Part shown: piece by piece, positions 5,218-16,078 of the stretch | How positions within the stretch are numbered: the stretch's first letter is position 1 | How the letters are laid out: each line of letters opens with the position of its first letter | Assembly (NCBI RefSeq): GCF_017308075.1 | Contig: NZ_JAFKFX010000025.1 | Location: 1-64,000, forward strand | Direction: 5' to 3' | Source of the DNA: Allobosea sp. | Lineage (GTDB): Bacteria; Pseudomonadota; Alphaproteobacteria; Rhizobiales; Beijerinckiaceae | DNA length: 64,000 bases | The notes under the pieces: generated by a model | What the model was told of the DNA's origin: nothing | Databases searched by the model: none | What the model saw: the letters and a program-made list of their open reading frames with translations, nothing else | Position numbers and translations under genes: made by a program

Positions 5218-5367
5218 TGTTCCATGCAGAACGCTGTTCACGCTCGCTCCCCGTGATCCCGAACGGCGTTCAGAACACGGTTCGCAAAGTATCGCGGAGC
5301 GACCTCCTGCGACCAAAACACTGTTCAGAACAGCGTTCTGGTCGCATTTTGCGTGGCGAACGTTGTT

Positions 5368-6357
5368 CTAGACGATCTCGATCCAAGTCGGGATGCCGGT
5401 GGCCATGAGGTCCGGATTGACGAGCTTACCGAGCCAGCTGGCGTCCTCGAAGATCATCCTGACCGCCGCCTGCATGTGGAGGGGATCGCCGCGGCAGGCC
5501 CGATCGTCGATCGCCTTGACGACCCGCTTCTTGGCCTTCACCCCCTCAGATCCCCGAAAGACGGGCCAGATCGCGACCTGCGCGGCCGTCAGATAGGCCA
5601 TGATCTGCGCGCCCTCAGCCGCCCGGCGCAGCTCCATGGCAGTGTCGCCCGGCGTCTGCGCCAGAGCGAACAGCCGATCGGCCATCTTGATCAGGCGCTC
5701 GACACGCCCGGCGAGCTGGTTGAGATCTGGCGCGCGCGCGAGAACCACGGCCCAGTGTTGTGTGTTGGTGTCCACGAACACGGGCGGTCCCCCCTCCGGC
5801 GGAAGGACAGTGGTGAGATCGTAGTGCCGCATCGGCCAGTCGGCGAGGCCTCGGTCCTGCGCCGCGGGGACGGCCGGTCCAGCCGGGACCATGAGCTCAC
5901 CGACGTTGAAGGCTGCGCGCTTGACGCGGATGCGGGTTGCCGTCGCGGGGGCAAGCGCCGGAACGTGTCGGCCGTCCTGGTTGTCGCCGTAAGGTCCGAT
6001 GCACTCGGCCAGGGCCAACTTGGCCTCGACGACGTCGAGATTGTCCGAGGGCCAGATGGCGGTGAGCGCTGTGAACGAGAGGCCGATCAGGGTCAGGCCG
6101 GCGGCGGTGCCCGGAACGGCATCAAAGCCTGAGCCGTACCTAACACGCATCGCTTCGTCAGCCAGGCGTTTCGCCTCGCGCGCCGCGAGCTTGAGGTTGG
6201 GGACGGCGCTACGAAACGCAACGAGTTCGGCGATAGTGGGATCGTCGCTGACGAGTTCCATCACGATGCCGATCGGATCGAGATCAGTCCTGGCTTCCGG
6301 ATGGTCGAGGGCACCGCGCTCGTTCTGGACCGAGAGATCCTGCTTCTTGTCATTCAT
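5368..6357 (-). CDS. Unrecognised accessory protein of the leftward array
   Basis: A 329-residue protein with no domain that I recognise. It opens MNDKKQDLSVQNERGALDHP. Residues 45-75 (LVAFRSAVPNLKLAAREAKR) look helical, and a Gly/Ala stretch near residues 80-105 (GTAAGLTLIGLSFTALTAIW) is hydrophobic enough for one membrane or buried helix. The second half includes VFVDTNTQHWAVVLARAP and a helical C-terminus. Part of it resembles the neighbour at 6829-7725 (DP-x6-F-x3-[TV]P followed by a run of Ala/Arg helices), so the two could be distant paralogues. A terminator follows it and a hairpin precedes it. Confidence 0.7.
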   Translation of the reverse strand: MNDKKQDLSVQNERGALDHPEARTDLDPIGIVMELVSDDPTIAELVAFRSAVPNLKLAAREAKRLADEAMRVRYGSGFDAVPGTAAGLTLIGLSFTALTAIWPSDNLDVVEAKLALAECIGPYGDNQDGRHVPALAPATATRIRVKRAAFNVGELMVPAGPAVPAAQDRGLADWPMRHYDLTTVLPPEGGPPVFVDTNTQHWAVVLARAPDLNQLAGRVERLIKMADRLFALAQTPGDTAMELRRAAEGAQIMAYLTAAQVAIWPVFRGSEGVKAKKRVVKAIDDRACRGDPLHMQAAVRMIFEDASWLGKLVNPDLMATGIPTWIEIV

Positions 6358-6420
6358 AGGATTTTTTCCAAGGGGTTACAGCCACGCGGCTGCATCTCCC
6401 CGAAATTCCCGGAATCAAGA

Positions 6421-6449
6421 GAGGCGCCCGCTCGGGCGCCTCATTTTTT
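6421..6449 (+). terminator. GC-rich hairpin with T-run in the leader of the 5368-6357 gene
   Basis: GAGGCGCCCG, a two-base loop and CGGGCGCCTC make a perfect 10-bp stem followed by ATTTTTT on the plus strand. As a terminator it would stop rightward transcription, but no rightward gene precedes it. For the leftward gene it is a leader hairpin about 65 bases before the start, so a regulatory role is equally possible. Confidence 0.6.
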
Positions 6450-6828
6450 CGTCCTCACCGGCTCGACGACGCCAAGCCGTCACCACGGCGCTCCTACGGT
6501 TCTCTGAGCGATTTCGGCTTGAGAGGAGCGTGGGACGCCGTTGGCGTTCAGCCGCCAAGCACCCACCACGGGCTTGCCACGGTCCCTTGAGCTCATTCTG
6601 CGCAGGGAGGACCGTAGGAGCCGGTTCCTGTGTTTCCAACCCTGGAACAGGGAGGAGTTCGCCCTATTCGCGCTCTGGCCATCGGCCCGCCTCTCCGATC
6701 CTGCCGAGCGGGATCTTTTCGTTCCTGGCGACGCCAACGGCTCGCCACGGCCGTCCCTGCGCCACGGTGCTCGACGATGACCGTCGAACACCACGCCGGG
6801 ATGTCGGCGCTTTTCCTCGACAACCGCG
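6450..6828. other. Non-coding spacer of the leftward array
   Basis: No convincing gene is seen on either strand. Two loosely similar GC-rich segments begin with GACGCCAA at 6468 and 6730 and run about 23 bases. The spacer separates two array genes and presumably carries the promoter of the 5368-6357 gene. Confidence 0.5.
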
Positions 6829-7725
6829 TCAGGAACGATTGGACGCTAGCATCGATCGCAGGTGGTCTCCCATCGCCATGGCGAGTTCGAGTGTCGCGCG
6901 CGCCTGAGGCCTCGCTGTCATCTCGTCGCAAGCCCCCTGCAGGCGAGCCCGGGCGTCGTGTGCCTGCGGCGCAAGCGCGATCCGTGCGAGGATGATGAGC
7001 TGCTGCAGGATCGCACCCTCCTGCGCGGCAATCGTGGCCTCGTACTGGGCCGGGCCGAGGTCGTCGTCCCGCAGCGAGCGGGCGAAGCGCGTCGCCGCGC
7101 GAACATGGCGGAGGGCTTCGTCCATGAGGGCATCGGTGTCGATCCCTTGGGCGAGCCAGGCGTTGAGCGTGGCCTGCTCCTCGAGCGAATGAACCGTTCC
7201 CCGCCCCGGTTCTTCCGGGGCGCGTTCGCTGGTGGCGGCATAGGCGATAGCGTCATGGGCGACCTGGACGGGATCGACGCGTCGAAGTCCGAAGGCGATC
7301 TGCCCGAAGGAGCGCAGCGGATTGTCGTGCGGGCCGTCGAGCGTCCCCAGCACCGCGTAGCCCTGCTCACGCTTGGCGTGGCGGTCGACGGCGGTGCGGG
7401 CCGGCAGCAGCGCGACTGCAATGTTGGCGATGTTGTTGAGGATGACGACGCTGAAGAGCTGGCCGACATGCAACCTGAAGGTCGCCTCGTCGGTGTTCTG
7501 CACCATGGCGACGAAGCGCGCGGTTTCCTCGGCGTGATGCCTGGCGCGGACGGCGATCGCAGCGATCGAGGGCGTGTTCTTGAGGAAGGCGGCGTAGTCG
7601 GCGTCGCTGGGGTCCTGCAGGCGCAGGGCGGCAAGCTCGTCGACGACCGGACGCTCGGTGTGGTCGATGACGAGGCCGTGGAGGCTGGCGGCGCGTGCCG
7701 GCTGGCGGGGCTGATTGGCAGTCAT
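6829..7725 (-). CDS. Unrecognised accessory protein of the leftward array
   Basis: A 298-residue, Ala-rich, mostly helical protein starting at the ATG at 7725 (MTANQPRQPARAASLHGLVI). Longer in-frame starts run through an untranslated leader that contains a GC-rich hairpin and the element CCCCGGGGAACC, so I reject them. Residues 35-75 (DPSDADYAAFLKNTPSIAAI and following) resemble part of the next gene downstream. A central hydrophobic block (LFSVVILNNIANIAVALLPA) could be a buried or membrane helix. No catalytic motif is seen and I cannot assign a function. Confidence 0.72.
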   Translation of the reverse strand: MTANQPRQPARAASLHGLVIDHTERPVVDELAALRLQDPSDADYAAFLKNTPSIAAIAVRARHHAEETARFVAMVQNTDEATFRLHVGQLFSVVILNNIANIAVALLPARTAVDRHAKREQGYAVLGTLDGPHDNPLRSFGQIAFGLRRVDPVQVAHDAIAYAATSERAPEEPGRGTVHSLEEQATLNAWLAQGIDTDALMDEALRHVRAATRFARSLRDDDLGPAQYEATIAAQEGAILQQLIILARIALAPQAHDARARLQGACDEMTARPQARATLELAMAMGDHLRSMLASNRS

Positions 7726-7799
7726 GTTCAGGTCTTTCTTGTTGATCGGGTTGGCGAGGTTCCCCGGGGGTGCTTCCCCGTTCCTCTCGCTTCCTCCCC

Positions 7800-8933
7800 T
7801 CATTCCCTGGCCCTGTTCTTCTGGCCCGGCGCGATCGCCGCGCGCGGAGCCGGCGGCGACGTCATCTCTGTCAGGAAGCCCATCCGGCTCTTCTTGCCGC
7901 GATCGAGCCCGAGGACGCCCTGGGCCCGCGCGAGGTCGCCTCGGGTCACGTGTCGACGCGACGACATGCACGCGAAGCCGAAGGCGATTGGCCACAGTCG
8001 CGACAGTGCTCTCGGCGTCAGTGAGGCGAGTTCCTCGAAAAGAGCTTCGGGCGGGCTCTCGAACAGATTGCCGCTCGCCGCATTGGCCTCGGCGAAGAGC
8101 GATCTCTGGATCGCCAGCATCTGATCGGCCTCGAGGCTGATCTCGAAGGTGATGAGGCGGTCGACGATCGAGTTCGGCAAGGGCGATAGGTCATTGGCTG
8201 TCGCGATCCAGATGATCGCATCGGCACGCAGCGGAATCTCGAGAAACTCGTCCTGGAAAGCCCGGGCATTTTCCCGCTCCAGGAGGCTGTGCAGGACGTT
8301 GATCGGCGTCTCGGTCGGATTGATCGGGCTCGATTTTTCGATCTCGTCGATAACGATGACAGGCGAGGCGCTGTCGCTCTCGATCAGGAGCTGCGCGACC
8401 TTCCCCGGCCCGGCCGCGCGCCAGGCGGGCGCCAGTCCCGTGAACCAGGAGCCGCGGTCGCTGATGGTGTTCATGGGGATGGTCAGCGTCGGCACACTGA
8501 AGGCACCTGCCAGCCGGCGCGCGTAGAAGGTCTTTCCGACTCCGGGGGGACCCAGCAGCACACAGGGGTCGAGGCGCAGCGGCTGGCCGCCGGCCATCGC
8601 CAGCGTCGCCGCACGCAGGATCCAGGCTGTCACCTCGCTGAACTGCGGACAGGTGAGGTCGAGCGCGGCGATGCGGGCGATCAGCGCGGCGTCGGGCATG
8701 ATCAGGCTGCGACGGGCTCCCCGCTCATCCTCATGGAGGCGCAACCAGAGGGCACGTTGGCGAGCGGCCTGGGCGGAGTCGTCCTCGCCGTCTCCCATGG
8801 CCGAGCCACGGTCGGCATAGAGACGCTGGAGCAGATCGCGCGTGCTGAACAGGTCGAGGCCGATCGCCTCCGTCGGCGATGGAGGCAAGGGCGCCGGCGG
8901 CTTGCGGCGTGCGCGGCGGGGCGTTGTGGTCAT
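7800..8933 (-). CDS. AAA+ ATPase, Lon/MoxR-like
   Basis: A 377-residue cytoplasmic ATPase, started at the ATG at 8933. Residues 128-135 are a classical Walker A (GPPGVGKT) and 192-200 the Walker B (VIVIDEIEK). Sensor 1 follows (IIWIATANDLSPLP), then an arginine-finger-like NSIVDRLITFEI and a C-terminal helical lid. The core resembles the Lon ATPase module, but no Lon protease domain follows, so it probably acts with a partner. It lies within a run of unfamiliar genes and just downstream of an exonuclease I homologue, which hints at a role in DNA processing of the element; that is inference. Confidence 0.85.
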   Translation of the reverse strand: MTTTPRRARRKPPAPLPPSPTEAIGLDLFSTRDLLQRLYADRGSAMGDGEDDSAQAARQRALWLRLHEDERGARRSLIMPDAALIARIAALDLTCPQFSEVTAWILRAATLAMAGGQPLRLDPCVLLGPPGVGKTFYARRLAGAFSVPTLTIPMNTISDRGSWFTGLAPAWRAAGPGKVAQLLIESDSASPVIVIDEIEKSSPINPTETPINVLHSLLERENARAFQDEFLEIPLRADAIIWIATANDLSPLPNSIVDRLITFEISLEADQMLAIQRSLFAEANAASGNLFESPPEALFEELASLTPRALSRLWPIAFGFACMSSRRHVTRGDLARAQGVLGLDRGKKSRMGFLTEMTSPPAPRAAIAPGQKNRARE

Positions 8934-9002
8934 GGGATGTCCAGGCTTTCGAGTTCTCAGGGGTTCTGCGGCTGCAGTCCCGCTCGTCGGCCCGGCCATG
9001 AG

Positions 9003-9031
9003 AAAAGGGCGCTAGCCTTCCGGCCGCGCCC
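9003..9031 (-). terminator. Rho-independent terminator after the exonuclease gene
   Basis: On the minus strand GGGCGC and GCGCCC, 13 bases apart, form a stem followed by TTTTCT. It lies about 30 bases after the exonuclease stop codon. Confidence 0.65.
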
Positions 9032-9059
9032 TTCCATCCTTTATCTCTGGCGCCCGTGG

Positions 9060-10487
9060 TTACGATACAGCCGCGCCGATCGGCCTCAGCATCTCTCCTC
9101 CGCTCGGGCCAAGGGCATCGCGGCGGGCAGCGAGCCAGGTGCTGATCTCACGGAGCGCGCTGCGCTGATCCGGATCCGCAGTTGCCGACAGCTCGGCGCA
9201 GCGCGACAGGGCGCGAGGCAGCGTCAGCCAGGGCACCTCTTCTTCGGTGGTAAGCCGATGGCGCAGCCAGTCCTGGCCACGGTTCCCGGCATCGGGCGAG
9301 AGTGTCTCCGGTGCGTTCAGGAACACCTGCCGGATCGCCAGGCTGCGCAGGCGCGGATCGGCGATGTGCTGCGCGGCAAACCCGGCCCGGTGTTCCCAGG
9401 CGATCTCGTGCCAGCGCCGGCACGCTGCAGCATCGCGGTCGGAGACGAATCCGCCTGAATACAGCTGGCCGTCCGGCCAGGCGCAAGGCTCCCGATCGGC
9501 GTATTGGTCCTGCAGCGCCAGCGCGAGCTGGCGGGTGAAGGTTGGGTGCGCCCATAGTGCCCGGGCCCGTTCACGATACACTGCTTCGGGCTCGGGCTCG
9601 GCGAGCGCATGTACCGCTTGGTCCCAGGCAAACAACACAGGCTGCGCGTTGGTCTTGACCTGCCTGACGGGCGAGCGGCTGGACCGGATGCGCGCCAGGA
9701 GCTCGGGTGCGGAGAGGCCGATGAATCCGGCCGGGTCTTGGCCGAGGTCGATACAGACCCGCGCGGACGGGTTCGTTGGCGAGCCGATCATCGGGAGCAC
9801 CGGCGTCAGGCGCGAGGTGCCGCCCAGGATCAACGGCTCGCCCGGCTCCAGCAGCGCGAGCGGCCCGGATTTCTTGGCATGGCCGAGCATCGTCGCCATC
9901 GTCGACGGCGCCCGGTCGAGCAGAAGCGCGAACAGGTCGCGCGTCGCCCGCACGTCCGCCAACGCGTCATGGGCTTCATCTTCGGACAGGGCGATGCCAT
10001 TGGCGCGGCAGACGTCGCCGAGTTTGAGGACGGGCTTACCGGTTGCATCGCGGGGGATCGCGACCGCGTCCGGCTCAAGCATCACGACAGCGCGAAGCAT
10101 GGTCAGGACGTCGGCCCGACCATGGCCGGTCATGGCTCCTAGATACGGCGGCAGCAGGGTCTGGTAGAAGCTCTGCCGCAGGACCTCATCGTCGAAGCGG
10201 ATTGTGTTGTAGCCGATCAGCATCGCGGGCTTGCAGTCCGCGATGATCCTGGCGATCTGTGCCATCATCTCGATATGGCTCAGCGGCTGGTCATCGAGCA
10301 TCTCCGGCGTGACGCCGGTGATGAGGAGCGCGTCGGGCGACGGCACGACATGGATGGGCAGGCGGCAGCGCAGCGTCAGTTCGCGCTGCACCGCAAGCTT
10401 GGCATCGGCCTGCAAGAATGCCGCCTGCAGCGGGACGTCCCAGCAGGGTTCGAGGCCCGAGGTCTCGAGGTCGTAGAACAGGTACAT
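9060..10487 (-). CDS. Exodeoxyribonuclease I-like 3'-5' exonuclease
   Basis: A 475-residue homologue of ExoI/SbcB, which degrades single-stranded DNA from the 3' end. The DEDDh active site is visible: D6 and E8 in MYLFYDLETSG, the second Asp in IGYNTIRFDDEVLR, and the His-x4-Asp pair in DEAHDALADVRATRD. The ExoI-typical ITGVTPEML and a long C-terminal region with the usual LRHRL-type helices follow. It starts seven bases after the stop of the 10495-10932 gene, so the two form an operon. A mobile-element copy of ExoI probably protects or processes transferred single-stranded DNA. Confidence 0.88.
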   Translation of the reverse strand: MYLFYDLETSGLEPCWDVPLQAAFLQADAKLAVQRELTLRCRLPIHVVPSPDALLITGVTPEMLDDQPLSHIEMMAQIARIIADCKPAMLIGYNTIRFDDEVLRQSFYQTLLPPYLGAMTGHGRADVLTMLRAVVMLEPDAVAIPRDATGKPVLKLGDVCRANGIALSEDEAHDALADVRATRDLFALLLDRAPSTMATMLGHAKKSGPLALLEPGEPLILGGTSRLTPVLPMIGSPTNPSARVCIDLGQDPAGFIGLSAPELLARIRSSRSPVRQVKTNAQPVLFAWDQAVHALAEPEPEAVYRERARALWAHPTFTRQLALALQDQYADREPCAWPDGQLYSGGFVSDRDAAACRRWHEIAWEHRAGFAAQHIADPRLRSLAIRQVFLNAPETLSPDAGNRGQDWLRHRLTTEEEVPWLTLPRALSRCAELSATADPDQRSALREISTWLAARRDALGPSGGEMLRPIGAAVS

Positions 10488-10494
10488 GACGGCC

Positions 10495-10932
10495 TCACTG
10501 TGCCCGGCCAGGCGGGTGCGGCAAGGGCGTCAGCACGATGCCGAGCCGCTCGGCATCGTTCTTCATCGCGGCCTCGACCATGAAGATCGCGTTCGAGCGC
10601 GCACCTTCCCCATCCAGCTGCGCCATCGACTCAAAGACGTGGATCTTCAGCGCAAGGACCGCGCGAAGCTCGGTCGGGGCCTCGGCCAGCAGCAGCGCCA
10701 TTCGGCGAGCGGCGATCCTCGCGCCCTCGGCGAGCTGGCGGCCGTTGAGGCCGTAGTCAGCATGGAAGTGCTCCGGCGCCTCCTCCAGCAAAAAGGCGTC
10801 TGAGTGGCAGGCCTCCCAGCGCAGGAAGAGTTCGTCAGCGGTCTTTTGCGTTGCGTAAGCACGCGCATAGAGCCGCATCTGGTCGTCGTCGGGCAGGTTG
10901 CCGTGGCCGGCGGCAAAGGTCTCGTTCGTCAT
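10495..10932 (-). CDS. Unrecognised helical protein, first gene of the leftward array
   Basis: A 145-residue protein from the ATG at 10932 (MTNETFAAGHGNLPDDDQMR). It is predicted helical throughout, with a central block (AEGARIAARRMALLLAEAPT) and a C-terminal helix (NAIFMVEAAMKNDAERLGI) ending in a Pro-rich tail. I know no family for it. It is read just before the exonuclease gene with a seven-base gap, so it may be a cofactor or inhibitor of that enzyme. A hairpin precedes its start. Confidence 0.68.
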   Translation of the reverse strand: MTNETFAAGHGNLPDDDQMRLYARAYATQKTADELFLRWEACHSDAFLLEEAPEHFHADYGLNGRQLAEGARIAARRMALLLAEAPTELRAVLALKIHVFESMAQLDGEGARSNAIFMVEAAMKNDAERLGIVLTPLPHPPGRAQ

Positions 10933-11479
10933 ATTCAAATCCAAGGAGCGCGGGCCCGAGGACCCGCTCCAGGGATCTTCACTCTCGGGGGTGATCTCAA
11001 AGGAGATTCCGCCCTGCGCCCTTCTCAGCCCCTTTGGCCAATTCTTCCGAAGTTGGCCCATTCCTGACGTCGGGAGCGTCCGCTTTCCGGTAACCTGGTT
11101 GGCAGCCACGCCGCGGCCGGAGCTGGCCATTAGGCGAACTTGCGAAGTTCCGCTTGTAGTTGCCGCATAGGCGCGCCCGATGGGACGGGAGAATAGCCCA
11201 GAACGACGCACGCCTTGTCCTAGGTGACGCTCGCGTCGTAGCCGAATGGAATGACGAGGTCTGAGATCTCTTTGCCCGCCTTGAAGGCCGGACCGGGGGA
11301 TCGCCTAGGGCTCAAGAAGGGTCAGTGGCAAGCTGGAGCAGGAAGAAGATCCATTTGCGGGCATCGCCGGCATCTCGGGGCGGTTGGTGGACGGAAGCTG
11401 TTATCCAAGCGTGAACTGAGGCCTCGACCTAGATTGGGTAATGAGCCCATTATAGTAGGACGGTTTTGAAGAGGAAGGA
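10933..11479. other. Divergent intergenic region with leader hairpin
   Basis: A 547-base gap between the leftward array and the rightward ATPase module, without a supported gene. At 10945-10970 GGAGCGCGGG and CCCGCTCC form an imperfect hairpin 13 bases before the leftward start. On the right, TATAGT at 11451-11456 is a plausible -10 box, preceded by the short palindrome GGGTAATGAGCCC (11436-11448), which could be an operator for the ATPase module. Confidence 0.5.
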
Positions 11480-11713
11480 ATGTCAAACGATACCCAGCAA
11501 AAGGCGGAGCCTGCGCAAGAACAAGCGCCCCACGCCGGCGACGCAGCGCCCGTGGCTACCGTGGCGAGCGGCGTGCTGGGCGCGTTCTTCGACGAACTCG
11601 AAAAGACCGAAGACCTCAAAGACAAAGCCGGCAAGCTGCGCGCGCTCATTCTCGGCGAGGGGGTCATGGCAGAGCCCGCCATCCGCGCGATCCTTTTCCC
11701 GGATGCGACATGA
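11480..11713 (+). CDS. 77-residue partner protein of the SMC-like ATPase
   Basis: A small acidic protein with GAGGAAGGA just before the ATG. Residues 1-25 are polar and probably disordered. Residues 28-77 carry the recognisable part: VASGVLGAFFDELEKTEDLK, then KLRALILGEGVMAEPAIRAI and the ending FPDAT. Its stop overlaps the ATPase start (ATGA), so the two are translationally coupled and likely made in fixed ratio. I have the impression that similar small genes precede ATPases of this kind elsewhere, but cannot cite a family. A regulatory or specificity subunit is the simplest guess. Confidence 0.75.
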   Translation: MSNDTQQKAEPAQEQAPHAGDAAPVATVASGVLGAFFDELEKTEDLKDKAGKLRALILGEGVMAEPAIRAILFPDAT

Positions 11714-14226
11714 TCCGCATCGACAAGATCACCATCCGCAAGTTCCGCGGGATCATCGAGCTGGAGTTGGAGCCCAAGGGAGAGAACTTCGCGGCGTGCG
11801 GGCCGAACGGCACTGGCAAGAGCGGCATCGTCGACGCGATCGAATTCGCCCTAACCGGCAATCTCTCTCGCCTGTCCGGTCGCGGCACCAAGGAGCTGTC
11901 GGTCAAGCAGCATGGGCCGCACGTCGATTACGTTAAGAAGCCCGAGGAGGCGTGGGTCCGGCTCGACGTGAGCCTGCCGTCGCTAGGCAAGAAAGCGTCA
12001 ATCACTCGCACGGTTAAGGCGTCCACGGTGCCGACCATTGAGCCGGGCGACGCTGACGTCCTGGCCGCCTTCGCCGATGTCAAGCTCCATCCCGAATTCG
12101 TTTTGTCGCGGCGCGAGCTGATCCGCTACATCATCGCGGAGCCCGGGGACCGGTCAGACGAGGTTCAAGCGTTGCTGCGCCTCAGCGATGTCGAGAAGCT
12201 GCGCGGCGTACTCAATAAGATAAACAACGCCTGCGGCAAGGACGTGGCGCCGGCTGAGCGCGCCGTGCGGACGGCGACGCAGCCGCTGCTCGATGCCCTT
12301 GGGATCGAGAGTCTCAGCAGGACGGCCATGCTGGGCGCGGCCAACGCCAAACGCGCCCTGCTCGGCCTGATCCCGCTTGATGACGTTACGGCGACCACGG
12401 ACCTGGCGGACGGTCTCAAGGCCGAAGGCGACGGGGTGGTGCAGAAGGTTCCCAAGGCGCAGGCCGCCGCGGACTTGGCGACGCTACGCAGCGCTCTGAC
12501 AACCTTGGGCAGCGACGAGGTTAACGCCCGGCGAGCCAAGGTCGCCGATGCAACATTGGCGCTATCTGGCGACGCCGACGCCGCCAACGAGGTCAAGCGC
12601 GAGACGCTGCTGAAGACGGCGCTCGATCTTTACGATGACGAGCAATGCCCGGTTTGCGACACGCCACAGACGCCCGACCACTTCACGGCCCACCTGAAAG
12701 GCAAGCTCGATCATCTATCCGAGGTTGCCCAGCAGCGGAAGGCGATCGAGGCGGAGATCGCGCCTCTGCTCGACGTGATCACCGCTGCGGGATCGGCAAT
12801 CCGAACGATCCTCCCATATGGGGCGATGTTCGAGCCGAAGCTCGAACTCAAGGACTTGGCCGAGTTCAGAGTTCTCCTGGGCGGCCGATATCAGCAGCTC
12901 AGCAAGCTGCTGCCCCTTGAGGACACGCTTGCGATCGTCGAGACCGGGTTCGACACGGCGCCGCTCGCCGCGGACCTCGGTGCGGTCGAGGCCGCCATCA
13001 AGGCAGTGCCCGAACCAAACGCTGAGGTCGGGGCGCGGACGTTCCTGCTGAACTCCCAGGCGCGGTTGACGGCCTATCGGGAAGCGAAAGCGGCGCACGA
13101 GATCGCTAAAGCCAATGCCACGCTGGCGGCCCGGGTCTATGAGACCTACGGTGCCTCTACGACGGCGGCCCTGGAGGCGATCTACGCCGATGTCGAGAGC
13201 ACGTTCTCTGACCTCTACCGCGAGATCAACAAGCCTGATGAGGGCAAATTCACGGCCCAGTTGCTGCCCTCGCTCGGCAAGCTCGGCTTCAATGTGGACT
13301 TCTATGGGCGCGGCCAGTTCCCGCCCGGCGCCTTCCACAGCGAAGGCCACCAAGACGGTATGGGACTCTGCCTGTACCTGGCGCTGATGAGTCATCTGCT
13401 CGGCCCCAACTTCACGTTCGCGGTCCTCGACGATGTTTTGATGTCGGTCGACCGGGGGCATCGCCGGGAGGTGTGCGCGCTTCTCAAGAAGCGCTTTCCA
13501 AATACCCAGTTTATTCTGACCACCCACGACGAGGTGTGGCTGCGGCATATGAAGGCCGAGGGCCTGATCAAGGGAAAGAGCTTCGCTCACTTCAAGCACT
13601 GGAGCGTCGCGACGGGCCCGGCCGAGTGGACGGACGCCGGAATTTGGGAGGAGATCGACGCCCATCTAGCGCAGGGGGACGTCCAGCCGGCGGCGGCGGC
13701 GCTACGCCACCATCTCGAACACTTCGCCGGGGAGATGTGCCACCGGCTGCGCGGCGTCGTCGAATACCGGGGCGACGGCAACTTCGGCTTCGGTGACCTG
13801 ATCACCGGCGCCGCCAACGCCCTGACCGACGCCTACAAGAAGGCCAAGGCTTCAGCCAACTCGTGGAACAAGCAGGAGGTGGTGACCGCCATCGGAGAGC
13901 GGGCCTCCGCCTTCACCGCCGCAAGGGAGGCAGCCAAAGTGGACCAGTGGCAGCTAAACGCCGGCGTCCACTACAATCCCTGGGCCGACCTGACGCGCGA
14001 GGACTTTCAACACGTGGTCGACGCCTACAAGGCGTTCGCGGCGCATTTCGAATGCGCGAACTGCTTGGAGCTGCTTTGGGTCACACCGGAGTACAAGCCG
14101 AAGGAGCAGCTCTGCTGTGCTTGCGGCGACGCCAGCCTGAACCTGATCGTCAAGCCGGTCGGGGCGAAGCCCGCCACCGCACCCGCCTCCACAAAAGAAG
14201 AGGCGGTTGAGCCCGTCATCAAATGA
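11710..14226 (+). CDS. SMC/RecF-like ATPase with zinc-hook-like motif and C-terminal zinc ribbon
   Basis: An 838-residue ABC-class ATPase. Walker A is at residues 31-38 (GPNGTGKS). A CPVC motif at 313-316 sits between helical arms, as in a short zinc hook. The signature-like FHSEGHQDGMGLCLYLAL is near 541-558, Walker B is VLDDVLMSVD near 571 and the H-loop ILTTHDE near 602. The C-terminal part adds about 200 helical residues and a zinc-ribbon candidate (C782, C785, C802/C803, C805). SMC-like ATPases with this layout act on DNA ends or serve as sensors in anti-phage systems. No nuclease domain is visible, so the effector is unclear. Confidence 0.88.
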   Translation: MIRIDKITIRKFRGIIELELEPKGENFAACGPNGTGKSGIVDAIEFALTGNLSRLSGRGTKELSVKQHGPHVDYVKKPEEAWVRLDVSLPSLGKKASITRTVKASTVPTIEPGDADVLAAFADVKLHPEFVLSRRELIRYIIAEPGDRSDEVQALLRLSDVEKLRGVLNKINNACGKDVAPAERAVRTATQPLLDALGIESLSRTAMLGAANAKRALLGLIPLDDVTATTDLADGLKAEGDGVVQKVPKAQAAADLATLRSALTTLGSDEVNARRAKVADATLALSGDADAANEVKRETLLKTALDLYDDEQCPVCDTPQTPDHFTAHLKGKLDHLSEVAQQRKAIEAEIAPLLDVITAAGSAIRTILPYGAMFEPKLELKDLAEFRVLLGGRYQQLSKLLPLEDTLAIVETGFDTAPLAADLGAVEAAIKAVPEPNAEVGARTFLLNSQARLTAYREAKAAHEIAKANATLAARVYETYGASTTAALEAIYADVESTFSDLYREINKPDEGKFTAQLLPSLGKLGFNVDFYGRGQFPPGAFHSEGHQDGMGLCLYLALMSHLLGPNFTFAVLDDVLMSVDRGHRREVCALLKKRFPNTQFILTTHDEVWLRHMKAEGLIKGKSFAHFKHWSVATGPAEWTDAGIWEEIDAHLAQGDVQPAAAALRHHLEHFAGEMCHRLRGVVEYRGDGNFGFGDLITGAANALTDAYKKAKASANSWNKQEVVTAIGERASAFTAAREAAKVDQWQLNAGVHYNPWADLTREDFQHVVDAYKAFAAHFECANCLELLWVTPEYKPKEQLCCACGDASLNLIVKPVGAKPATAPASTKEEAVEPVIK

Positions 14227-15484: not shown

Positions 15485-15898
15485 TTACTCGATGACCTGG
15501 ACGATCTTGCGAGTCTTCGGCTCGACCAGGACCGTGCGGTTGTTGACGACGGTATAGCGGTAATCCTTCACGCCATACTCAGCCGGCACTTCACGGTAAG
15601 TGACGCCACGCTCGGGCAGCACGGCGCCGACCCGAACTTCTTCGCTGTATGTGTAGGATGGGACGCGCTGCTCGGTCACATAGGTTTTGAAGCGCGGAGT
15701 GTTGTCGCCGATGATGCCTCCGACAACGGCGCCCCCGACGCCGCCCACAACAGCGCCTACCGGGCCGCCGACAACCGCACCGCCAACTGCGCCAGCAGCT
15801 GCGCCGCCGGCCGCGCCACCCTGGGCTCCCGAGGGGTTCTGAGCGTAAGCCGCCATCGGAGCCAAGGCGATTGCGGCAGCAAGAATGATCTTCTTCAT
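15485..15898 (-). CDS. DUF1236 exported protein with glycine-zipper segment
   Basis: A 137-residue exported protein. The start MKKIILAAAIALAPMAAYAQ is a signal peptide with an A-x-A cleavage site near residue 19. Residues 25-68 are a run of Gly/Ala/Val with G-x3-G spacing (AGAVGGAVVGGPVGAVVGG), a glycine zipper that can insert in or bind the envelope. The C-terminal half matches DUF1236 (VRVGAVLPERGVTYREVP, YGVKDYRYTVVNNRTVLVEP). These periplasmic proteins are frequent and multicopy in Hyphomicrobiales; function unknown. It probably has its own promoter and terminator. Confidence 0.85.
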   Translation of the reverse strand: MKKIILAAAIALAPMAAYAQNPSGAQGGAAGGAAAGAVGGAVVGGPVGAVVGGVGGAVVGGIIGDNTPRFKTYVTEQRVPSYTYSEEVRVGAVLPERGVTYREVPAEYGVKDYRYTVVNNRTVLVEPKTRKIVQVIE

Positions 15899-16078
15899 GA
15901 CTTGAACTCCCGTTGCTCCCCAGTTGGCGCCACAACTTAGAATCAATGTAAAAGGTTCCACTTGGGATCGGTTGGCTTTGGGCTTTCCTTGCCAACAGCA
16001 ACTTGCGAGCGCATGCTGGGAGCATGGCATTCACCGGAGCTGCTGCGTTCGCGGCGTGAGGCGCGGTCGCGTCTCTTC

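Follow-up and report, generated by a model that had tools for sequence, protein, structure and literature searches.

A zinc-hook ATPase and its small partner gene in Allobosea: a candidate two-gene immune module with a possibly RloC-like domain

The window analysed here is a 64,000-nucleotide stretch of an Allobosea sp. contig (NZ_JAFKFX010000025.1, positions 1 to 64,000), in which two rightward genes encode a 77-residue protein and an 838-residue Rad50/SMC-type ATPase. A reading made from the sequence alone (the sequence-only reading) had joined the two by an ATGA overlap, had listed Walker, zinc-hook, signature-like, H-loop and zinc-ribbon motifs in the larger protein, and had seen no nuclease. 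The two open reading frames (ORFs) and their 4-base overlap are as described. Each of the motifs can be found in the protein, and in the 13-row alignments the majority of their residues do not vary. The features are given below with their conservation in three alignments, A1, A3 and A4, the last of which has 13 rows.

11480..11713, + strand: small partner gene, 77 residues, from the ORF list
11710..14226, + strand: Rad50/SMC-type ATPase with C-terminal helical domain and zinc ribbon, 838 residues
11800..11823, + strand: Walker A, GPNGTGKS, residues 31-38; invariant in A4 save residue 35
12646..12657, + strand: zinc-hook motif CPVC, residues 313-316; C313, P314 and C316 invariant in A4 and A1
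13336..13359, + strand: signature-like HSEGHQDG, residues 543-550; S544, E545 and D549 invariant in A1, and H543, G546, H547 and Q548 likewise in A4
13417..13434, + strand: Walker B ending in D574-D575 (Asp-Asp, not Asp-Glu); both Asp invariant in A1 and A4
13525..13527, + strand: H-loop (switch) histidine H606, within T605-H606-D607; invariant in A1 and A4
13627..14049, + strand: C-terminal helical domain, residues 640-780; proposed RloC-like HEPN ribonuclease domain
13705..13719, + strand: R666-x3-E670; invariant in the 13 rows of A4 and in hhalign register with the R-x3-E of RloC
13957..13977, + strand: N750-x3-H754-x-N756; invariant in the 13 rows of A4
14053..14124, + strand: zinc ribbon C782-x2-C785 ... 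C803-x-C805; invariant in A3 and A4

The ATPase passes the Pfam cut-offs for SMC_N (53.5 bits) and AAA_23 (41.5 bits), and in its AlphaFold model CPVC is flanked by long helices (residues 289-307 and 322-373). All NCBIfam matches of the pair, for example to RecF and Rad50, fall far below threshold. The small protein, which has a net charge of -6 and appears helical on inspection of its sequence, has no match at E 0.1 in Pfam, PADLOC or NCBIfam, and 13 of its relatives have no PADLOC match. A Pfam family for it was considered and rejected; the matches were weak and scattered, each to one or two of the 13 members.

The pair as a conserved two-gene unit

Does the small gene accompany the ATPase in other genomes, as a single module would require? 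Of 44 intact relatives, a set that includes the window and counts the near-identical L033 and L034 apart, 42 have an ORF of 53-81 codons that ends where the ATPase gene starts. The sequence-only reading had named a small gene not conserved with the ATPase as a ground for refutation, and these loci speak against that outcome. Split or partial copies (L012/L014, L027, L041, L044/L045 (L136)), the short L129 and L086, which ends at the edge of its locus, stand outside the 44, and several plasmid matches were left out of the relatives taken further. The overlap is exactly 4 bases in 29 of the 42; elsewhere it is 8-26 bases long, or the two ORFs stand 3 or 15 bases apart. The two relatives with no separate small ORF, L127 (3051-5795) and L042 (7818-10274), are single genes with N-terminal extensions of roughly 60-95 residues in the small gene's place, possible natural fusions with it. 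At RloC loci, used as a control, such an ORF was found in 0 of the 15 that could be scored out of 20; the control's Walker A pattern missed the other five. At one locus, that of Hymenobacter monticola (L130), the small gene lies in the DNA upstream of 4001 and is absent from the plasmid's gene table.

Seven bacterial phyla and the haloarchaea are represented, and the hosts include Alphaproteobacteria, Nitrospirota, Myxococcota, Verrucomicrobiota, Actinomycetota, Chloroflexota, Bacteroidota and Halobacteria. Within the close clade, where computable, the ratio of nonsynonymous to synonymous substitution rates of this ORF lies at 0.10-0.49, with synonymous sites often near saturation; by this measure the small ORF is under purifying selection in that clade. 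Mirror-tree comparison of small-gene and ATPase distances gives r = 0.849 over 34 pairs, where 5000 permutations reach at most 0.267, and 0.694 when restricted to distant pairs. Because shared descent contributes to the correlation, this co-variation speaks for joint inheritance and not for contact. Net charge is negative in 29 of 34 small proteins. By hhalign, the core small proteins match those of haloarchaea at 90.9% and those of L013/L024 at 52.5%; homology between the Bacteroidota small proteins and the core was not shown by this comparison (0.2%). The haloarchaeal copies L022 and L023 (Halomontanus and Natrinema plasmids) keep small gene and ATPase, and their ATPase protein, which stops directly behind its second ATPase half, has neither the helical domain nor the zinc ribbon.

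The sequence-only reading had been unable to place the pair in Lamassu, Wadjet, PARIS or OLD, and the Pfam, PADLOC and NCBIfam scans bear it out. For Wadjet JetABCD, the scanned window genes match no kleisin, KITE or TOPRIM subunit; for PARIS, OLD and Gabija, neither the two proteins nor the scanned neighbours match TOPRIM. Septu PtuA, PARIS AriA and Gabija GajA resemble the ATPase through weaker ABC-head matches in PADLOC. They differ from it in that their best matches cover short stretches at the Walker motifs, the window protein has a hook, and no HNH or TOPRIM model is matched among the scanned window genes. A match to MADS mad3 was set aside for lack of specificity: 190 of 190 genomes contain a match to the model, and the loci inspected presumably encode the ABC protein UvrA. 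Among the papers listed by full-text searches, at most 20 for each search and with many journals outside their reach, no description of the pair was found, and passages of a BREX survey (PMC12839542) do not mention it. We conclude that it is a conserved, co-inherited two-gene unit distinct from the listed systems tested.

The C-terminal domain and its resemblance to RloC

What might the domain before the zinc ribbon contribute? Residues 640-780 are predicted to form a helical bundle, followed by the zinc ribbon (AlphaFold predicted local distance difference test, pLDDT, 86.2), and match no Pfam family. Five of these residues, R666, E670, N750, H754 and N756, are the same in every one of the 13 rows of A4, and H754 is present in all 16 domain-bearing rows of A1. 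This pattern, R-x3-E ... N-x3-H, resembles the catalytic pattern of RloC. According to passages of PMC2610378, R692, E696 and H737 of the 804-residue G. kaustophilus RloC are each required for anticodon-nuclease activity, a zinc-hook mutant is more active, and the RloC pattern is Arg-X3-Glu-X36-52-His, often with Ser before the His. Because the C-terminal domain carries such a pattern in the roughly 140 residues before the zinc ribbon, the earlier statement that no nuclease is visible is probably wrong.

Among 24 AAA_13 (RloC) loci (L099-L122; L106, L111, L112 and L116 were omitted from the domain alignment and L106, L112 and L116 from the full-length one, and L123 and L124 stand outside the set), R-x3-E ... 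S-H occurs in 20, with an E-H spacing of 36-51 and an N at H-4 in 12 of the 20. When compared by hhalign with 21 RloC/AAA_13 proteins, the 13 rows align over 372 columns (98.6%, E 8.1e-16, score 139.7), from the hook to just past R666-x3-E670, in register with the R-x3-E of RloC. The same rows score 81.2 with LmuB, 68.6 with RecF and 64.4 with SMC, over the first 90 or so residues only. Six distant relatives match RloC over the ATPase head at 99.6% (E 1.6e-24, score 212; LmuB 105, SMC 92), and one 4-sequence RloC sample aligns N750-x3-H754 with N-x2-S-H. Of these distant relatives, L013, L024, L126, L127 and L128 carry R-x3-E followed by (S)H and L062 carries R-x3-D ... SH; their E-H spacers are 63-74, and their domain matches that of the window family at 96.6-96.7%. 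Two single ATPases, L042 and L086, likewise score above LmuB against the family, at 113.9 and 108.0 respectively, through their N-terminal part. In the Bacteroidota copies L025/L026, R666 is absent and RNEVGAHFN is present, the canonical HEPN form Rx4-6H, the Arg of which is absent from the core rows. Passages of PMC3710099 give Rx4-6H as the HEPN motif and class the RloC domain as HEPN.

The window protein and RloC are alike in their Rad50-like ABC ATPase, interrupted by a coiled coil with a CXXC hook, in their similar length, and in a C-terminal R-x3-E with a later His. They differ in that the window family has a separate small gene (42 of 44 loci versus 0 of 15 scorable RloC loci), where RloC is a single-gene enzyme, an extra C-terminal zinc ribbon, and the signature HSEGHQD.

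Several results weigh against the resemblance or its reach. Taken alone, the domain gives 2.3% and a score of 19.7 against RloC by hhalign; this score beats 150 of 150 column shuffles, yet two RloC stretches outside the C-terminal domain score higher (20.8 and 21.3). The domain of three distant relatives gives 62%, but that of all six only 1.7%. Eight RloC samples of 4 sequences each score 44-97, a range around the 81 obtained with LmuB and not clearly above it. The E-H spacing in the window protein is 83, outside RloC's 36-52, and the residue before the His is V, I or L, never S, in 13 of 13 core rows. The window protein has no AAA_13 match in Pfam, and only the distant relative L127 has one, below threshold. 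Foldseek of the domain returned nothing significant, also against viral models; among the 50 matches listed, the HEPN structure 2hsb had the highest probability (0.41, E 1.9). Moreover, L022 and L023 keep the pair yet end before the C-terminal domain; therefore, a ribonuclease is not universal in the family. As these comparisons stand, the link to RloC is suggested and not proven.

Distribution, mobility and surroundings

Relatives were found by tblastn on 31 plasmid records, and a scan of genome contigs added at least 13 further full-length relatives and at least 2 partial or distant ones; these figures are a lower bound. Of 385 genomes of the class, 5 carry the ATPase; among 41 relatives, the genome of the window counted, it is present in 3, including a congener in which the copy falls into two pieces. 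Some copies lie on contigs exceeding most plasmids in size, for example L039 on 3.6 Mb. In the ATPase tree, the Nitrospirota sequence clusters with two alphaproteobacterial ones (support 100/100), and those of Verrucomicrobia and Anaeromyxobacter cluster with six alphaproteobacterial ones (100/100); deeper in the tree, the branches are long and the forks uncertain. The pair is thus sporadic, often plasmid-borne and horizontally mobile. A phage or viral origin was rejected, with no match in phages and none confirmed in IMG/VR. There was also no evidence for tRNA-Cys as an insertion site: L131, L133, L134 and L136 contain no tRNA, and a tRNA-Met lies beside the pair in L135.

Neighbours were compared over 42 loci, a set that adds L027 and L133-L136, omits L010, L011, L013, L043 and L062, and has flanks of up to 7 kb, some far shorter. 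A BREX-5 locus in Halorhabdus has the pair inserted between its pglX and pglZ genes. In L133 (genome G355), the pair adjoins a HEPN_Toprim_N gene followed by a trypsin-like protease gene, with a CBASS-type cyclase no more than 3 kb away. AbiE and an abortive-infection gene lie within 4 kb of the pair at one locus, a restriction endonuclease gene adjoins it at another, and further neighbours include DarT, RES and TIR genes and DUF499/DUF1156 genes. In 5 of the 42 loci (L003, L029, L031, L128 and L136, with a partial YhaN match in L031), SbcD/YhaN- or SbcCD-like genes are found no more than 7 kb away, which gives the impression of two Rad50-type machines travelling together there. The neighbours in L002 include ImuA, an SOS peptidase and a gene of the DNA polymerase Y family. 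The HEPN_Toprim_N/trypsin-like duo of L133 recalls the nuclease-protease pairs of PMC12799240.

To the left of the pair, a leftward array (window 5368-11211) holds an exonuclease I-like gene (PADLOC RTasSbcB, 264 bits), a Lon-like AAA ATPase and three ORFs with no Pfam match. The sequence-only reading had kept pair and array apart, and a congener (L131) agrees with this: it retains 5.8 kb of the array (window 5365-11086; 72% identical DNA), and the 13 kb covered there contain nothing that matches the pair. Membership of the pair in the array was accordingly rejected. Related stretches recur in the genus (L131, L132), several times in some genomes. To the right, the stress block proposed earlier holds up in outline, with genes for a DUF892 protein, an iron-permease family protein, an isochorismatase and Hsp20. 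Another congener (L136, genome G403) has a split, apparently broken ATPase gene at 5758-8182. Since a partial homologue of the glycine-zipper/DUF1236 gene found at 15485-16030 of the window lies close to that copy, the pair may sit in similar surroundings in the window's genome and in this congener.

Readings of the pair

An apparent RNA-cutting domain in the large protein makes the pair a probable immune module, self-contained and unlisted. In its full form, as a stand-alone, horizontally moving two-gene immune module with an RloC-like ribonuclease and a dedicated small partner, we give this reading a probability of about 0.5; we infer the ribonuclease and a trigger in DNA, what the small protein does, and a function in defence. 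The earlier interpretation holds in part: a conserved, mobile SMC/Rad50-like two-gene module with defence genes at some loci stands, whereas the lack of a nuclease does not. Defence-type genes, judged from product names, neighbour the pair at 9 or more of 23 annotated plasmid loci (one, L027, a split copy); this is a raw share, uncorrected for background, and its limits count against the immune reading.

How might such a module work? The Rad50-type ABC ATPase would dimerise through its zinc hook and heads, and these would sense a DNA state linked to infection or plasmids, such as ends, unusual structures or a disabled restriction system. The RloC-like HEPN domain would be an endoribonuclease, most likely acting on tRNA and held off until the heads engage; the trigger would free it, and translation would stop (abortive infection). 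By analogy with RloC, we infer the ribonuclease activity, the tRNA target and control by the hook. The small, mostly acidic protein, presumably co-translated, would be a dedicated ATPase subunit, and gene order suggests that it may silence or license the ATPase, a place filled in RloC by RloC itself and in PrrC by a restriction enzyme.

Could the pair instead be a reduced Lamassu-type sensor, LmuB with an LmuC-like partner, whose effector has been replaced by the C-terminal domain or is supplied in trans? LmuB is its best PADLOC match (60.8 bits, over the head-hook-head length), and the LmuB model is matched by 13 of 13 rows (best E 1.3e-29). L062, counted as a distant relative of the window family, was found as a weak LmuB match (89.7 bits), and Lamassu LmuACB ranks fourth in Foldseek of the full model. 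Both systems join a small zinc-hook SMC-like ATPase to a small protein; LmuC is small and absent from some Lamassu, as passages of PMC10586767 describe, and L022/L023, ending before the C-terminal domain, fit a sensor with a separate effector. We nevertheless consider this reading unlikely. The score is 5.6- to 7.4-fold below those of the four strongest of eight LmuB loci in 190 genomes of the class (340-452 bits; the four weaker, L062 among them, reach 86-128), and hhalign with four LmuB covers the Walker A region only (34 columns). Walker B ends in Asp-Asp, against the Glu-to-Gln form described for LmuB, and the protein has a C-terminal domain of its own. The PADLOC scan of the pair and five leftward window genes contains no LmuA match, the window genes scanned match no LmuC model, and the small proteins are unmatched. 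Lamassu membership was rejected on the score and on the lack of LmuA.

A DNA-repair or maintenance complex of plasmids and islands, Rad50/SbcC-like with a small regulator, would give the C-terminal domain a role in binding DNA or protein and no ribonuclease activity. Rad50 and SMC chains dominate the structure and sequence matches, the fold of head, coiled coil and hook is shared with Rad50/SbcC and SMC, and the SbcCD-type and ImuA neighbours described above would suit such a complex. This too seems improbable, as the distribution is sporadic, R-x3-E and N-x3-H are invariant, one copy is inserted inside BREX-5 and another lies close to a CBASS-type cyclase. Unlike Rad50/SbcC and SMC, the window protein is shorter and has an added domain and zinc ribbon, and the scanned window genes match no Mre11/SbcD or kleisin/KITE. 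Still less credible is a toxin-antitoxin-like addiction pair, with a small upstream antitoxin and a large ATP-gated HEPN toxin selected for plasmid stability over immunity. The small gene does come first, with its 4-base overlap, mostly acidic product and many plasmid-borne copies; however, some copies lie on contigs beyond the size of most plasmids, no listed pair was matched, and an 838-residue zinc-hook ATPase is unusual for a plain toxin.

The immune module with an RloC-like ribonuclease remains the reading that we prefer. Its extension to the whole family is put forward more tentatively: an unnamed two-component immune ribonuclease family of bacteria and haloarchaea may exist, in which an RloC-like zinc-hook ATPase-HEPN protein depends on a co-translated small regulator. 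That regulator would be fused N-terminally in some lineages (L127, possibly Streptomyces L042), and the ribonuclease domain would be lost in others, leaving the sensor free for other effectors. If true, a widespread module, unnamed in the PADLOC models used, would join the antiviral inventory, and Rad50-type sensing would be tied to tRNA or RNA cleavage through a separable subunit. A regulator of 53-81 residues, removable or mutable alone, would let one ask how such ATPases are silenced, and the relatives without the ribonuclease domain would show that sensor and effector are exchangeable.

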